From contig NZ_CP092099.1 in the NCBI RefSeq assembly GCF_022259695.1, forward strand, positions 2,340,471 to 2,404,470: a stretch of DNA of 64,000 bases, in the 5' to 3' direction. The notes beneath the pieces were generated by a model. The model searched no databases, was not told the origin of the DNA, and saw only the letters and a program-made list of their open reading frames with translations. Each line of letters begins with the position of its first letter. The first letter of the stretch is position 1. The position numbers were made by a program, and so were the translations under genes. The DNA is from Flaviramulus sp. BrNp1-15. GTDB taxonomy: Bacteria; Bacteroidota; Bacteroidia; Flavobacteriales; Flavobacteriaceae. Shown here piece by piece: positions 4,645 to 9,547 of the stretch.

Positions 4645-5667
4645 TCAGATTGTTTGAGTTTTTAGAGTTTTGATTAGTGTTTCATGCATCGCATCAGTGT
4701 AATTATAATGGGTTACCATACGTAGCTTACCACCTCCCATGCTGATAACATAAATACTTTTATCAGCTAGATTTTTCACAAAACGTTCTTCATCAACATA
4801 TTTATTTAATTCGAAAATCACAATATTGGTTTCAATAGGTTCAACCGATTTAACTATTGATAATTTGGTTAACTCCTCACCTATTTCCTTTGCTTTTTTA
4901 TGGTCTTCGGCTAAACGTTCTATATTATTATCTAGAGCATAAAGTCCGGCAGCAGCTAAATAACCTGCTTGTCTCATATTTCCTCCAAAGATTTTCCGAA
5001 TTCTGATAGCATTTTGCATAATATTAGAATCTCCAATCAAAACCGAACCTATAGGGCAACCTAAACCTTTACTTAAACACACCGAAATAGTATCAAATAC
5101 TTCTCCATACTGTTTAGCGGTTTCATTTTTAGCTACTAAGGCATTCCAAATACGCGCACCATCTAAGTGATAACCCAACTCGTTTTCATCACAAACAGCT
5201 TTAATCTTTTTAATTTCATTAAAATCCCAACAACTTCCACCTCTTCTATTAGCTGTATTTTCAATTTCAACTAAACTTGTTTTACTATAATAATAAGCAT
5301 TTGGATTTATAGCTTTTAAAACATCTTCGGCTGTAAACATGCCGTTGTTTTCATCTAAAAGCTTACAGGAAATTCCGCTATTAAACGAAGCACCACCAGA
5401 TTCGTAATTATAAATGTGAGCATATTTATCACAAATCACTTGATCTCCAGGGTTTGTATGCAACTTTAAAGCGGTTTGGTTAGCCATAGTACCACTAGGA
5501 AAAAATAAAGCTTCTTCTTTACCAAACATATTAGCAATACGCTGCTCTAATAGATTAACAGTTGGGTCTTCTCTAAATACATCATCTCCTACTTTAGCTT
5601 GCATCATAGCATCCAACATTCCTTTTGTAGGTTTTGTAACAGTGTCGCTTCTTAGGTCTATTATCAT
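4645..5667 (-). CDS. ltaE: Low-specificity L-threonine aldolase
   Basis: A 340-residue PLP enzyme that splits threonine or allo-threonine into glycine and acetaldehyde. The N-terminal IDLRSDTVTKPT stretch is diagnostic, GYHLDGARIW gives the cofactor-binding Asp, and Lys200 in CLSKGLGCP is the expected PLP lysine. The first 22 codons (5603-5667, except that the copy ends inside codon 22) are duplicated exactly at 8229-8293. The gene therefore now begins at the left edge of an inserted segment and has lost its original upstream region, which is expected to lie right of 8293. No strong minus-strand promoter was found in 5668-5772. The coding sequence itself looks intact. Confidence 0.93.
   Translation of the reverse strand: MIIDLRSDTVTKPTKGMLDAMMQAKVGDDVFREDPTVNLLEQRIANMFGKEEALFFPSGTMANQTALKLHTNPGDQVICDKYAHIYNYESGGASFNSGISCKLLDENNGMFTAEDVLKAINPNAYYYSKTSLVEIENTANRRGGSCWDFNEIKKIKAVCDENELGYHLDGARIWNALVAKNETAKQYGEVFDTISVCLSKGLGCPIGSVLIGDSNIMQNAIRIRKIFGGNMRQAGYLAAAGLYALDNNIERLAEDHKKAKEIGEELTKLSIVKSVEPIETNIVIFELNKYVDEERFVKNLADKSIYVISMGGGKLRMVTHYNYTDAMHETLIKTLKTQTI
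5603..5667. repeat. 65-bp perfect direct repeat, left copy (5' end of ltaE)
   Basis: Identical base for base to 8229-8293, offset 2626. Identity stops at 5602/8228 on one side and 5668/8294 on the other. The left copy is part of intact ltaE; the right copy is an orphan. The arrangement resembles a target duplication or attachment-site pair around the segment 5668-8228. Confidence 0.95.
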
Positions 5668-5683
5668 AAAATCTAATTATATG

Positions 5684-5691
5684 TATATTTG
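5684..5691 (+). promoter_or_regulatory. Probable -7 box for the CapK-like gene
   Basis: TATATTTG matches TAnnTTTG and lies 81 bases upstream of the ATG at 5773, inside the inserted segment. No TTG box is seen at the usual distance; that region is the start of ltaE. Confidence 0.45.
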
Positions 5692-5772
5692 CGGCTTATA
5701 AAAGTATAATTATTTATTTAAATATAAATTTTCATTTCAATTTTAAGCCCAAAACCTACTTAGACTAACTAC

Positions 5773-7083
5773 ATGAATTATTTAAACTATTTAAGAAATA
5801 AATCTTTTTGGTTAATAGATGCTTTAAAAGGAAGGTTGATTAAAAATCATCTAAAAGAAGTTAGTTTGATTCTTAAAAACCCCACGAGCGAACAATCAAA
5901 AAACATAAGAAAAAAACATATAGAGAATTTACTGCTTCATGCTTGTAAAACAACTCTATACTATTCATCCTTTATCAATAATAAAGATATTGTTGAATTT
6001 CCTGTGATAAAAAAAACAGATATTCAACAAAATTTTGAAGCGTTTAAATCAAGTAAATTTAAAGAAAAGACTAATTATAAAGTAGCTACAAGTGGCTCAA
6101 CTGGAGTTCCTTTTTTCTTATTTCAAGATACTAATAAAAGACAGAGAAATACTGCTGACGTTTTATATTTTTCAAAGGAATGCAATTTCACACTTGGAAA
6201 TAGATTGTATGAGTTAGAAGTTTGGAGAAAACATAACAAAAAAAGCAGGTTTAAATCATGGATTCAAAATATAAAGCAATTCGATATTTCTAAGTTATCC
6301 GATACTCGAATAGAAGAATTTTTACAACTTTTGAAAACTTCAAAACAAAAAAAGACCATTCTTGGTTTTGCTTCCTCTTATGAACAAATATGTCAATATT
6401 TAGATAAATCAAAAAACAAAATTGAAGATTACAAGATTAGTTCCATAATTGCAAATTCTGAATATTTAAATCTTAATACTAAAAAATCAATGAGTAACTA
6501 TTTTAATGCTCCTGTATTATCAAGATATTCAAGTGAAGAGATTGGTATAATTGCTCAACAAACTATTAAATCTCCAGATTATTTCATTATTAATCATGCA
6601 AGTTACCATGTTGAATTATTAAGTTTAGAAGAAGATACACCTGTTAAAGTTGGAGAAATTGGTCGTATTGTTGTTACAGACTTATTTAATTATGCAATGC
6701 CTATTATAAGATATGACACAGGTGATATAGCAAAGTTAATTGAAGATGATGGTATTACTAAATTTGAACATATAGAAGGAAGAAAAATGGATTTAATATA
6801 TGACACAAAAGGTAATATAATATCATCATTCGTTGTTTATACTAAATTCTACAACTACTATAAACACTTAAATCAATATCAATTTATACAAGAAGGTGAT
6901 AAAAAATACCATATAAAACTAAACATACATGATGAAAACTTTCCTTTTGAAAAGGAGTTAATAGAAGATATTAAAAAAGATTTTGGTTTTGATTCAATTA
7001 TAAAAGTAACTTACGTTAAAGAAATACCTACACTTTCATCAGGAAAAAGAAAGAAAGTTTTAAATACTTTTCATAAAAATTAA
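5773..7083 (+). CDS. CapK/PaaK-like adenylate-forming enzyme
   Basis: A 436-residue member of the phenylacetate-CoA ligase-like branch of adenylate-forming enzymes. The ATP-binding P-loop TSGSTGVPF lies near residue 107, an aromatic/acidic stretch SRYSSEEIG follows mid-protein, and YDTGDIAKL with the C-terminal SSGKRKK lysine region completes the family pattern. Relatives without a defined acid substrate are common in capsule and surface polysaccharide loci (CapK). It is convergent with the ATP-grasp gene, sharing four bases at the stops, and both lie within the segment flanked by the 65-bp repeat. The pairing suggests a joint acid-activation or ligation pathway; this is inference. Confidence 0.82.
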   Translation: MNYLNYLRNKSFWLIDALKGRLIKNHLKEVSLILKNPTSEQSKNIRKKHIENLLLHACKTTLYYSSFINNKDIVEFPVIKKTDIQQNFEAFKSSKFKEKTNYKVATSGSTGVPFFLFQDTNKRQRNTADVLYFSKECNFTLGNRLYELEVWRKHNKKSRFKSWIQNIKQFDISKLSDTRIEEFLQLLKTSKQKKTILGFASSYEQICQYLDKSKNKIEDYKISSIIANSEYLNLNTKKSMSNYFNAPVLSRYSSEEIGIIAQQTIKSPDYFIINHASYHVELLSLEEDTPVKVGEIGRIVVTDLFNYAMPIIRYDTGDIAKLIEDDGITKFEHIEGRKMDLIYDTKGNIISSFVVYTKFYNYYKHLNQYQFIQEGDKKYHIKLNIHDENFPFEKELIEDIKKDFGFDSIIKVTYVKEIPTLSSGKRKKVLNTFHKN

Positions 7084-8207
7084 CTAAACTTAGCCAAAAT
7101 CACATTTTTAGTTCTCCAAATAAACTTATAAATCATTGGTAATGGATCTTTAATTGCAAATTTTAAAGGTGTATTAGCAATTATAAATTTGAAGTTAAAA
7201 AGAGTAGTTTTCTTTATCTTAATTTTTTTAATTAAACCTTTTAAATTTAAATACTCAATATTTTTGTAATCAGGCTTTATAAAATTTTGGTTTAAACTTG
7301 CTAAGCAATATAGATGTGGAAAATTTACTCCAGAAATTAATGATGCATCTAACGAAACCCAGTAACGTGTGTTTATTTCTATTACTTTAAATTTTTCGTC
7401 ATGTTTGTCATATCTCATATCAATGTGAGCAATACCTGACCAATTAAGAGATTTCATTAACTTTTCTACTACTTTATATAACTCTTCATTATGAAGAAAT
7501 TCTAACCCCACTTGAGGTGAAAATTCATTTTTACCTAAAAGATTCCCTTTTTGAATTGTATATGCCAAAACTTCTCCATTTTTACATAAAACACTACAAT
7601 CTATATCATAACCTTCAATATAATCTTGAACTAAATAAGGATAATTAAATTTATTTTCATCAAAAAAATGATCTATTTGTTTTTTAGAATTAAATACTTT
7701 TATTCCCATTCCTCCGCCAAATCCTTCCATAGGTTTTATTAAAGCAGGCAATTTAATTTCCTTTTCACTTGTAGTCGCTCCTGGTAAAATAACTACTCCT
7801 TTTGGATGTGGTAAATTATTAGTTTTTAAATGTTCGGCTAAACACCCTTTATTAATAGCTATATTGAATACTGAAAAACTAGGTAAAAGTCCTAATTTAG
7901 ATTTATTATTTACTAAATTTTCATGCTTTATAATTGTTCTTATTCCGTCTTCAAAAATTGGCATAACAACATCTATATCATATCTAATAAGTTCTTTATT
8001 TATATTATAAATCCAATCTATTTCATTCGTTTTTTCAAAAAAAGAAAAGTTATAAATATATCTAGATAATCTCATTGGATTACTGTTTTTGTTTGACATA
8101 ACAAAAATTTTCAATCCTTTAATTTGAGCTAAACAATTGACCACATAAATTAAAAGATGACTTTCACCATCTGGAATTAATACTGAAATATTATTATTAG
8201 TTTTCAT
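7080..8207 (-). CDS. ATP-grasp domain protein (carboxylate-amine/thiol ligase type)
   Basis: A 375-residue protein resembling CarB-like ATP-grasp ligases, which activate a carboxylate as acyl phosphate and join it to a nucleophile. Visible are LPALIKPMEGFGGGMG (nucleotide-binding lysine and glycine-rich loop), YLVQDYIEGYDIDCSVL, and the metal-binding IEINTRYW near residue 275. The N-terminal part (1-105) looks like a pre-ATP-grasp domain. The start at 8207 follows a purine run (AAAAAAGG). A 24-codon orphan ltaE fragment ends 11 bases upstream, so transcription may come from the old ltaE promoter. Substrates are unknown. Confidence 0.82.
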   Translation of the reverse strand: MKTNNNISVLIPDGESHLLIYVVNCLAQIKGLKIFVMSNKNSNPMRLSRYIYNFSFFEKTNEIDWIYNINKELIRYDIDVVMPIFEDGIRTIIKHENLVNNKSKLGLLPSFSVFNIAINKGCLAEHLKTNNLPHPKGVVILPGATTSEKEIKLPALIKPMEGFGGGMGIKVFNSKKQIDHFFDENKFNYPYLVQDYIEGYDIDCSVLCKNGEVLAYTIQKGNLLGKNEFSPQVGLEFLHNEELYKVVEKLMKSLNWSGIAHIDMRYDKHDEKFKVIEINTRYWVSLDASLISGVNFPHLYCLASLNQNFIKPDYKNIEYLNLKGLIKKIKIKKTTLFNFKFIIANTPLKFAIKDPLPMIYKFIWRTKNVILAKFS

Positions 8208-8218
8208 CCTTTTTTACT

Positions 8219-8293
8219 TTAACTATAAATCATAGCATCCAACATTCCTTTTGTAGGTTTTGTAACAGTGTCGCTTCTTAGGTCTATTATCAT
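8219..8293 (-). pseudogene. Orphan 5' fragment of ltaE, 24 codons
   Basis: Reads the first 21 residues of threonine aldolase exactly plus the start of the next codon, then diverges and stops at a TAA at 8219-8221. Bases 8229-8293 are the right copy of the 65-bp repeat. The stop lies 11 bases before the ATG of the ATP-grasp gene, so the fragment could be translated as a leader peptide. It is most simply explained as the part of ltaE left behind, or copied, when the two-gene segment was inserted. Confidence 0.88.
8229..8293. repeat. 65-bp perfect direct repeat, right copy (orphan ltaE start)
   Basis: Perfect copy of 5603-5667. It marks the right boundary of the inserted segment. The sequence to its right probably is the ancestral ltaE upstream region shared with prfB. 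Confidence 0.95.
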
Positions 8294-8314
8294 TATAAAA
8301 GTTAATAAGTAAAT

Positions 8315-8340
8315 ATCCTCTAAAGCTAGCCTTAGAGGAT
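8315..8340. other. Perfect hairpin between the ltaE remnant and prfB
   Basis: Bases 8315-8323 (ATCCTCTAA) pair with 8332-8340 (TTAGAGGAT) around the loop AGCTAGCC. On the plus strand it is followed by an AT-rich but not U-only stretch, so it is a weak terminator at best. It could be an operator or an old terminator in the ltaE-prfB intergenic region. Confidence 0.6.
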
Positions 8341-8383
8341 TTAAATTTTAATTATTGAGTAAAGCTATAAAATTATATTAAGA

Positions 8384-8418
8384 TTTGTTTTCTGCTGTAT
8401 CTTTAAATTCTATTTTTG
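8384..8418 (+). promoter_or_regulatory. Probable prfB promoter
   Basis: TTTG at 8384-8387 and TATTTTTG at 8411-8418, a match to TAnnTTTG. The 23-base spacer is slightly longer than the usual 19-21. The -7 box ends 18 bases before the ATG at 8437. Confidence 0.5.
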
Positions 8419-8436
8419 TTTAAAATAAATTTAACT

Positions 8437-9547
8437 ATGATTACATCAGATCAAATTAAAGATCTTAATACCCGCCTTGACAAACTAAGGCACTATCTTT
8501 GACATAGATGCCAAACTTATAGAAATACAAAACGAAGAAGAAAAAACCTTCGACCCTAATTTCTGGAACGATTCCAAACAAGCAGAATTAGTCATGAAAT
8601 CTCTTAAGGAGAAGAAAAGTTGGGTTCAAGACTACAAAACCTCCAAAACTTTTATTGAAGATTTAGAAGTTATTTACGAGTTTTTTAAGGAAGAGGAAGC
8701 TACAGCCGAGGATGTTCAAGATCGTTACGATAAAGCTATAAATCTCATTGAAAAACTAGAGTTTAAAAATATGCTTTCTGAAGAAGGCGATGCACTTAGT
8801 GCTGTTCTTCAAATTACTGCAGGAGCTGGTGGTACCGAAAGTTGCGATTGGGCAAGTATGCTTATGCGCATGTACTTAATGTATGCAGAAAAAAACGGAT
8901 TTAAAGTAAAGGAACTTAACTTTCAGGAAGGCGATGTTGCAGGAATAAAAACCGTGACTTTAGAAATTGAAGGCGACTATGCTTTTGGTTGGCTTAAAGG
9001 TGAAAATGGTGTACACCGTTTGGTAAGAATCTCCCCTTTTGATAGTAACGCTAAACGACATACTAGTTTTGCTTCGGTTTATGTATACCCACTTGTTGAT
9101 GATACTATTGAAGTTGAAATAAACCCCGCAGATATAGAAATTACAACAGCACGTTCCAGTGGTGCTGGCGGACAAAATGTTAACAAGGTAGAAACTAAGG
9201 TTCAACTAACGCATAAACCAACGGGAATTCAAATTCAATGTTCCGAAACGCGTTCGCAACATGATAATCGTTCCAGAGCCATGCAAATGCTTAAATCTCA
9301 GCTTTACGAAATAGAACTCCAAAAACAATTAGCACAACGCGATGATATTGAAGCTGGTAAAATGAAAATTGAATGGGGAAGTCAAATTCGTAACTACGTT
9401 ATGCATCCTTACAAACTGGTTAAAGATGTTAGAACAAGCCATGAAACTGGTAACGTAGATGCTGTTATGGATGGAAATATTGATGAGTTTTTAAAGGCCT
9501 ATTTAATGATGATGGGGCAAAAAGTAGAAGACGATAATCAATTATGA
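8437..9547 (+). CDS. prfB: Peptide chain release factor 2, with programmed +1 frameshift
   Basis: RF2 ends translation at UGA and UAA. The true start is the ATG at 8437: frame 0 gives 21 codons ending CTT and then an in-frame TGA at 8500-8502. Skipping T8500 continues at GAC (8501) and runs to 9547, giving about 369 residues, the normal RF2 length. CTT TGA C after AAGG matches the classical autoregulatory slippery site: low RF2 allows slippage and more RF2. The SPF stop-codon recognition motif (VRISPFDSN) and the GGQ hydrolysis motif ([11 protein letters not shown]) are both present. An ORF starting at the internal ATG 8594 would wrongly lose the N-terminus. Confidence 0.95.

Follow-up and report, generated by a model that had tools for sequence, protein, structure and literature searches.

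Homology-facilitated illegitimate recombination (HFIR), in which one end of the incoming DNA recombines within a homologous anchor gene and the other is joined illegitimately, was reported from three competent (transformable) species (PMC3240628). In the E. coli assay of that report, 56 of 60 clones carried a partial duplication of the anchor, 109–950 bp long in the 14 that were sequenced, and the authors ascribed these duplications to a single crossover of circles (PMC3240628). Here, we describe a locus with a similar map in Flaviramulus sp. BrNp1-15. It lies in a stretch of 64,000 nucleotides (contig NZ_CP092099.1, positions 2,340,471–2,404,470; hereafter, the window), in which a CapK-like gene and an ATP-grasp gene, the cargo, are found between two core genes, ltaE and prfB, and are flanked by two copies of the first 65 nucleotides of ltaE. 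As in HFIR, one end of the new DNA lies by homology within an anchor gene and the other may be an illegitimate join, no mobility gene is present, and genes were added beside a core gene. However, HFIR generally comes with deletion of resident DNA according to the same source (PMC3240628), whereas at ltaE the join, as read from the sequence, lies inside the anchor gene and a stump was left. The duplications of the E. coli assay, which involved lacZ, share the map, in that a direct duplication of the anchor flanks new DNA, but they come from a laboratory conjugation assay (PMC3240628), whereas ltaE is a natural locus with a 65-bp repeat. The event in the window is a clear example of an already known kind of event. 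Its new aspects are that a single hotspot bears a pair of mirror scars and that one of the two shows a sign of a donor allele.

Several other described systems can be compared with this locus. Insertions of restriction-modification genes with long target duplication, as reported for Helicobacter pylori, also show long direct repeats and have no known transposase; however, the ltaE cargo is not a restriction-modification system, and the mirror case described below resembles two alleles and not a self-copy. In many hotspots that lack mobile elements, recombination takes place at the flanking core genes (PMC5635113); like the ltaE–prfB interval, such hotspots hold variable cargo between two conserved core genes with no integrase seen. 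The model given there is homologous recombination at both flanks, and the available part of that paper describes no stump, whereas the ltaE locus points to one flank and has a stump. For the addition of type VI secretion system (T6SS) effector-immunity genes in Vibrio cholerae, an HFIR-like route was proposed, again with part of a conserved gene as the anchor and with remnants of resident genes (PMC5361080). Those remnants are immunity genes kept downstream, whereas the remnant at ltaE is the stump of a housekeeping gene. Illegitimate recombination was also discussed as a source of variable segments (PMC2884548), and large tandem duplications by transformation were described (PMC3784515). Our literature search found no paper on illegitimate recombination with partial duplication of a flanking gene at a genomic island, nor one on a prfB genomic island or hotspot in Flavobacteri*; such papers may still exist.

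The duplicated ltaE start

The two repeat copies (Table 1) are identical at 65 of 65 positions, and the identity starts exactly at the ATG of ltaE. The left copy is the beginning of the intact gene (21 codons and two bases of the 22nd). The right copy is an orphan, which carries the same 65 nucleotides from the ATG and then runs, cargo-ward of base 8229, into DNA unrelated to ltaE. The resulting frame consists of 21 ltaE codons, an altered 22nd, two new codons and a stop, and it ends 11 nucleotides before the ATG of the ATP-grasp gene; this 24-codon frame may be translated. A search of the genome (one contig of 3,580,797 bases) reported these two copies only, and the pair is the sole direct repeat of at least 36 bp reported in the window (exact seed 14). 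Because the ltaE starts of relatives match at most 58 of the 65 positions (median 54 among 100 loci; best 55 in 20 more loci), a chance origin of the identity is excluded. Between the copies, no open reading frame (ORF) of at least 80 amino acids was found besides the two cargo genes, neither of which is a recombinase, and no mobility gene was present; no tRNA was found in the window. A first-pass annotation of the window had pointed out the identical copies, the intact and the orphan ltaE start, and the CapK-like and ATP-grasp genes between them with no integrase or transposase, and the comparison of the copies, the genome search and the ORF and family scans bore out each of these observations.

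For comparison, we used 80 loci of named genomes, the best of 233 ltaE matches, which were picked by ltaE similarity and not by content, and 40 further loci of the family, which were picked partly for closeness and partly for wide gaps and hence are not a fair sample. Removal of 10 duplicates left 110 distinct loci. The 143-nucleotide spacer between the orphan and prfB, when aligned with the spacers of 33 loci without cargo (empty sites), scored better than all 50 shuffles in 23 of them, whereas the 105 nucleotides upstream of intact ltaE did so in none of the 33, with one tie. In addition, a promoter-like motif, TTTATAGNTTTA, picked after the empty sites had been inspected, occurred (one mismatch allowed) in 21 of the 33 empty sites, in 9 of the 64 loci with cargo and in 1 of the 13 other loci, as well as in 65 of 2400 shuffled sequences. 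It is mostly located about 30 nucleotides ahead of ltaE in the empty-site relatives; here, it was detected 78 nucleotides before the orphan and was absent ahead of intact ltaE. Since both the spacer match and the motif go with the orphan only, the orphan sits in the ancestral spacer, and it is intact ltaE that has new upstream DNA.

Cargo turnover and stumps between ltaE and prfB

The ltaE–prfB interval is a turnover spot with variable cargo between fixed core genes. Among the 80 best ltaE matches, the gap was short in 30 (about 89–215 bp) and about 480 bp in one, and 40 loci had about 1.2–8.9 kb of varied cargo; in the other nine, the gap was not measurable, as prfB lay beyond the DNA compared. 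Among the cargo are CapK and ATP-grasp genes, glycosyltransferase clusters, DUF7467 proteins, a metalloprotease (DUF5117/DUF4953) and a trio of which one member is a circularly permuted ATP-grasp protein. A scan of 26 cargo proteins from other loci, a minority of the cargo ORFs, returned no match to a family of transposases or integrases.

A search for ltaE and prfB stumps covered the gaps in 65 of 100 loci, 20 more loci and L186, together 76 distinct loci other than that in the window; in nine of them, prfB was not in the compared DNA and only ltaE stumps were searchable. Two of the 76 had a stump, both with different cargo, and 74 had none. In a Seonamhaeicola metagenome-assembled genome (L065:5971–6145), a decayed 5' stump of ltaE, about 170 bp long and with stop codons, lies amid other cargo. 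The second case (L137:6994–7460, genome G088) is a mirror image of the ltaE scar on the other flank: a 468-bp 5' stump of prfB, which starts 3 nucleotides before the ATG and is 97% identical to the prfB of the same genome, is separated from the intact gene by two cargo ORFs (661 and 192 amino acids) that matched no Pfam family. When the L137 spacers were compared with that of a genome of the same genus (L126), the spacer at the stump scored 88 (best of 100 shuffles, 40) and that at intact prfB scored 24 (best of shuffles, 37). In L137, too, it is thus the stump that occupies the ancestral spacer, and intact prfB does not.

The two prfB copies in L137 differ by 10 substitutions over 118 codons, counted after the frameshift site and before a 1-nucleotide insertion (the first 67 nucleotides and the part after the insertion were excluded), and eight of these are synonymous, against a neutral expectation of 19–22% (P 6e-5 to 2e-4). 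As the substitutions are mostly synonymous, the copies are likely to be two functional alleles, and one of them probably came from a donor.

In addition, 299 genomes of the family were scanned with the first 48 residues of LtaE (259 genomes with a match) and with 91 residues of the PrfB start (291 with a match). Two matches to the ltaE probe were present in the source genome and G138 only, and two matches to the prfB probe in G088 and G066 only. The second match in G138 covers 21 residues in a different open frame, at the end of a contig, and that in G066 is a 381-amino acid frame on another contig; neither was accepted as a stump. Short nucleotide matches in L085 (27 nucleotides), L102 (21 nucleotides) and elsewhere were dropped as chance.

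Probable homology-anchored capture and alternative explanations

We consider it probable that the cargo entered by homology-anchored, one-ended capture and not as an integrating element, and we read the scars in L065, L137 and the window in this same way. The cargo would have come on a donor molecule, attached to the start of a near-identical ltaE. One end would be fixed by homologous recombination in ltaE, so that the resident gene gains the 5' end of the donor together with its upstream DNA, and the other donor end would be joined, with no real homology, inside resident ltaE, 65 nucleotides past the start of the start codon. The resident ltaE start would thus be left as an orphan in the old spacer with the old promoter. 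The route might be classic HFIR of a linear fragment or a single crossover of a circularised fragment, which would give the same map. After the event, the old ltaE promoter would point through the 24-codon stub into the ATP-grasp gene, and ltaE would run from the new upstream DNA. The free end must spare the neighbours: a join in the spacer would leave no mark, and a join inside the resident gene upstream of the crossover would leave a stump. One-ended capture therefore predicts a map like that at ltaE, with stumps that can be of any size and can lie on either of the two flanking genes. Consistent with this, one junction lies in the resident gene, as the repeat forms the start of ltaE and the intact gene reads on beyond it; L137 has the mirror case at prfB. 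Because the copies in the window are identical, a near-conspecific donor is required; the comparison set includes one genome of the source genus. A donor step for the window copies is suggested by analogy with L137. With regard to DNA uptake, natural transformation was reported in this family for Riemerella, and the source genome encodes a protein of the Competence family (ComEC).

Several observations weigh against one-ended capture. The identity of the copies means that a donor allele is not visible in the window, and in L137 neither prfB copy is clearly nearer to the same-genus genome L126 (399/462 and 398/464), so that this comparison does not tell the foreign copy. The Competence family also matches 10 of 14 control genomes, E. 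coli included, and so is uninformative; no Ku was found in the source genome; and Flavobacterium johnsoniae was reported not to be competent under the same conditions as Riemerella (PMC7965970). HFIR usually deletes resident DNA (PMC3240628), and no loss is visible at ltaE. The scar is rare, with 1 of 299 genomes per flank, and decayed stumps may escape detection. Finally, in both clear scars the shared part ends close to the start codon (0 and 3 nucleotides from it), which the model does not require. If this were no coincidence, DNA might enter the locus by a process that targets the starts of genes. Every capture would then replace the promoter of ltaE or prfB, both housekeeping genes, and pass the old promoter and the first codons to the newcomer as a leader, with instant expression; we think such a process quite unlikely.

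Other explanations can be considered for the repeat. An insertion with long target duplication, in which one event copies the resident target to both sides of the insert, would produce an identical map and identical copies, as in the window, and the literature has a name for this pattern (Nobusato 2000, cited in PMC1643837 and PMC4978471). We regard this origin as unlikely: the differences between the L137 copies are mostly synonymous, unlike those expected from a self-copy followed by decay. The L137 result leaves the window itself unaffected, where a self-copy may have given rise to the repeat. A tandem duplication of a larger stretch (cargo and ltaE start) in a cargo-bearing strain, and then a deletion that spared a single cargo and a stump, would likewise yield identical copies. 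Upstream of ltaE, the locus of Jejuia pallidilutea (L079) does hold capK-like and ATP-grasp genes, two of each kind, but each pair is divergent in sequence and hence not a recent duplication. Two events would be needed, and the cargo-free ancestral spacer beside the orphan requires a third, which makes this scenario highly improbable. An assembly artefact is hardly credible. The genome is a single contig, in which a 65-bp repeat, far below the length of long reads, is not a likely source of assembly error, and the spacer at the orphan is ancestral.

The first-pass annotation had favoured an insertion that copied the 5' end of ltaE and thereby restored the gene, as integrating elements do, with the cassette possibly moved in trans. 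Both the insertion and the restoration of ltaE by a second 5' copy stood up; the likeness to an integrating element did not. Some integrating elements have attachment sites of several dozen base pairs, and perfect direct repeats at a gene start with the gene restored would fit a site-specific cassette that lacks its own integrase and has a 65-bp attachment site at the ltaE start. However, the footprint varies in length (65, about 170 and 468 bp) and occurs on prfB too, with no constant attachment site, which disfavours a single site. The further copies of the 65-bp sequence that had been proposed as a check were not found in the genome, the 2,561-bp segment had no DNA match on 72,556 plasmid records, and a stump was present in only the two other loci of 76. 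ATP-grasp matches were detected in 38 plasmid records, all with <60% identity (20.9–26.4% among the 20 matches listed), and phage records had remote CapK-like matches in three only (17.8–24.6% identity). Movement of the cassette in trans is therefore very unlikely. Recombination between ltaE starts, the other suggestion, came closest to one-ended capture, which differs in that homology is favoured at one end only, with an illegitimate join at the other. Comparison of the locus in relatives, also proposed at that stage, revealed both empty sites and other cargo at the same site; the relatives do not all share the two genes and the repeat, as the repeat is rare and the cargo varies.

Gene gain at integrase-free hotspots has so far been mostly inferred from statistics of flanking core genes. 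The stumps described here, which occur on either flank of the same hotspot and with different cargo, each record one event directly; they reveal the resident copy and, in L137, suggest a donor allele as the source of the other. A systematic search for such stumps could yield a count of one-ended captures. The ltaE case further suggests a way for a captured gene to come under a housekeeping promoter immediately.

Features of the locus and the cargo genes

Table 1. Features of the ltaE–prfB region, in window positions
Feature	Position	Strand	Basis
ltaE, intact threonine aldolase-family gene, 340 aa; anchor gene	4645..5667	-	ORF list, family matches
Left repeat copy, nucleotides 1–65 of intact ltaE counted from the ATG	5603..5667	-	Sequence identity, genome search
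New spacer, ltaE to capK	5668..5772	.	Unlike ancestral spacer of 33 empty-site loci; without the old promoter-like motif
CapK/PaaK-like adenylate-forming ligase gene, 436 aa; cargo	5773..7083	+	ORF list, family matches
ATP-grasp ligase gene, 375 aa; cargo, convergent with capK	7080..8207	-	ORF list, Pfam
Join of orphan ltaE to ATP-grasp gene; purine-rich stretch ahead of the ATP-grasp ATG	8208..8228	-	
24-codon mini-ORF created by the join	8219..8293	-	Frame reading
Right repeat copy, orphan nucleotides 1–65 of ltaE	8229..8293	-	Sequence identity, genome search
Ancestral prfB–ltaE spacer, now adjoining the orphan	8294..8436	.	Spacer alignment against empty sites
Promoter-like motif TTTATAGCTTTA	8360..8371	-	Motif scan of relatives
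prfB (peptide chain release factor 2), other flanking gene	8437..9547	+	ORF list, family match

The prfB entry in the ORF list begins at 8594 owing to an in-frame stop, which we take to be the programmed frameshift site of this gene. The old spacer between the orphan and prfB also contains a near-perfect 24-nucleotide inverted repeat (8316–8339). It was not noticed in the empty-site spacers looked at, where no search was aimed at one, and it is possible that it is a terminator or a later insertion.

The predicted CapK protein matched the NCBIfam families PA_CoA_ligase (2e-14) and DVU1553 (5e-21), both below their cut-offs, and no Pfam family at 0.001. The other cargo protein matched Pfam ATPgrasp_Ter and ATP-grasp_3 above the cut-off. 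The two genes overlap by 4 bp, and their G+C content is 25%, lower than that of the window (30%), ltaE (34%) and prfB (37%). The closest relatives of the CapK protein are from Flavivirga jejuensis (L039, 69% identity) and J. pallidilutea (66%); in both, the gene is located at most 10 kb upstream of ltaE, and prfB lies beyond the DNA compared. In J. pallidilutea, the two CapK-like and two ATP-grasp genes (L079:2011–8331) occur in mixed orientations, and a 211-amino acid ORF separates CapK from ATP-grasp. The two genes are adjacent and convergent upstream of ltaE in L112, and in L186:3638–4771 (G061) an ATP-grasp gene with 51% identity is situated between prfB and ltaE with no stump. A convergent CapK/ATP-grasp pair with a 14-bp overlap was also found away from ltaE (L187:9006–11424, G040), in the neighbourhood of a threonyl-tRNA synthetase-like gene; this location is perhaps a second insertion site of the pair.

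The source genome has two CapK paralogues (46% identical) at 2.302 and 2.311 Mb, and a third match is remote. The paralogues belong to a polysaccharide-type cluster (L118, 2.300–2.320 Mb), roughly 33–44 kb before the ltaE locus, that encodes a Bac_transf sugar transferase, a glycosyltransferase, an epimerase and two ATP-grasp proteins. By analogy with this gene company, the cargo pair might modify or decorate a surface polysaccharide. We found no paper that links CapK with ATP-grasp and polysaccharide; such papers may still exist.

We also compared tree changes with 500 shuffles, for rows drawn from two different searches, as a measure of how closely the cargo families keep to the ltaE locus. 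On the tree, the ATP-grasp genes retrieved together with ltaE form clusters (three changes; shuffled mean, 9.1; none of 500 shuffles as low), and the CapK genes fetched with ltaE do so weakly (five changes against 6.6 when shuffled; 33 of 500 as low). This mixed outcome gives only a hint that the families keep to the locus. Two of the ATP-grasp rows (L053 and L135) lie 3' of ltaE. That side, between ltaE and ybaB, is also variable, with about 1–4 kb of extra DNA in L053, L055, L056, L060, L105, L135 and others, and the extra DNA of L053 and L135 includes the ATP-grasp gene.

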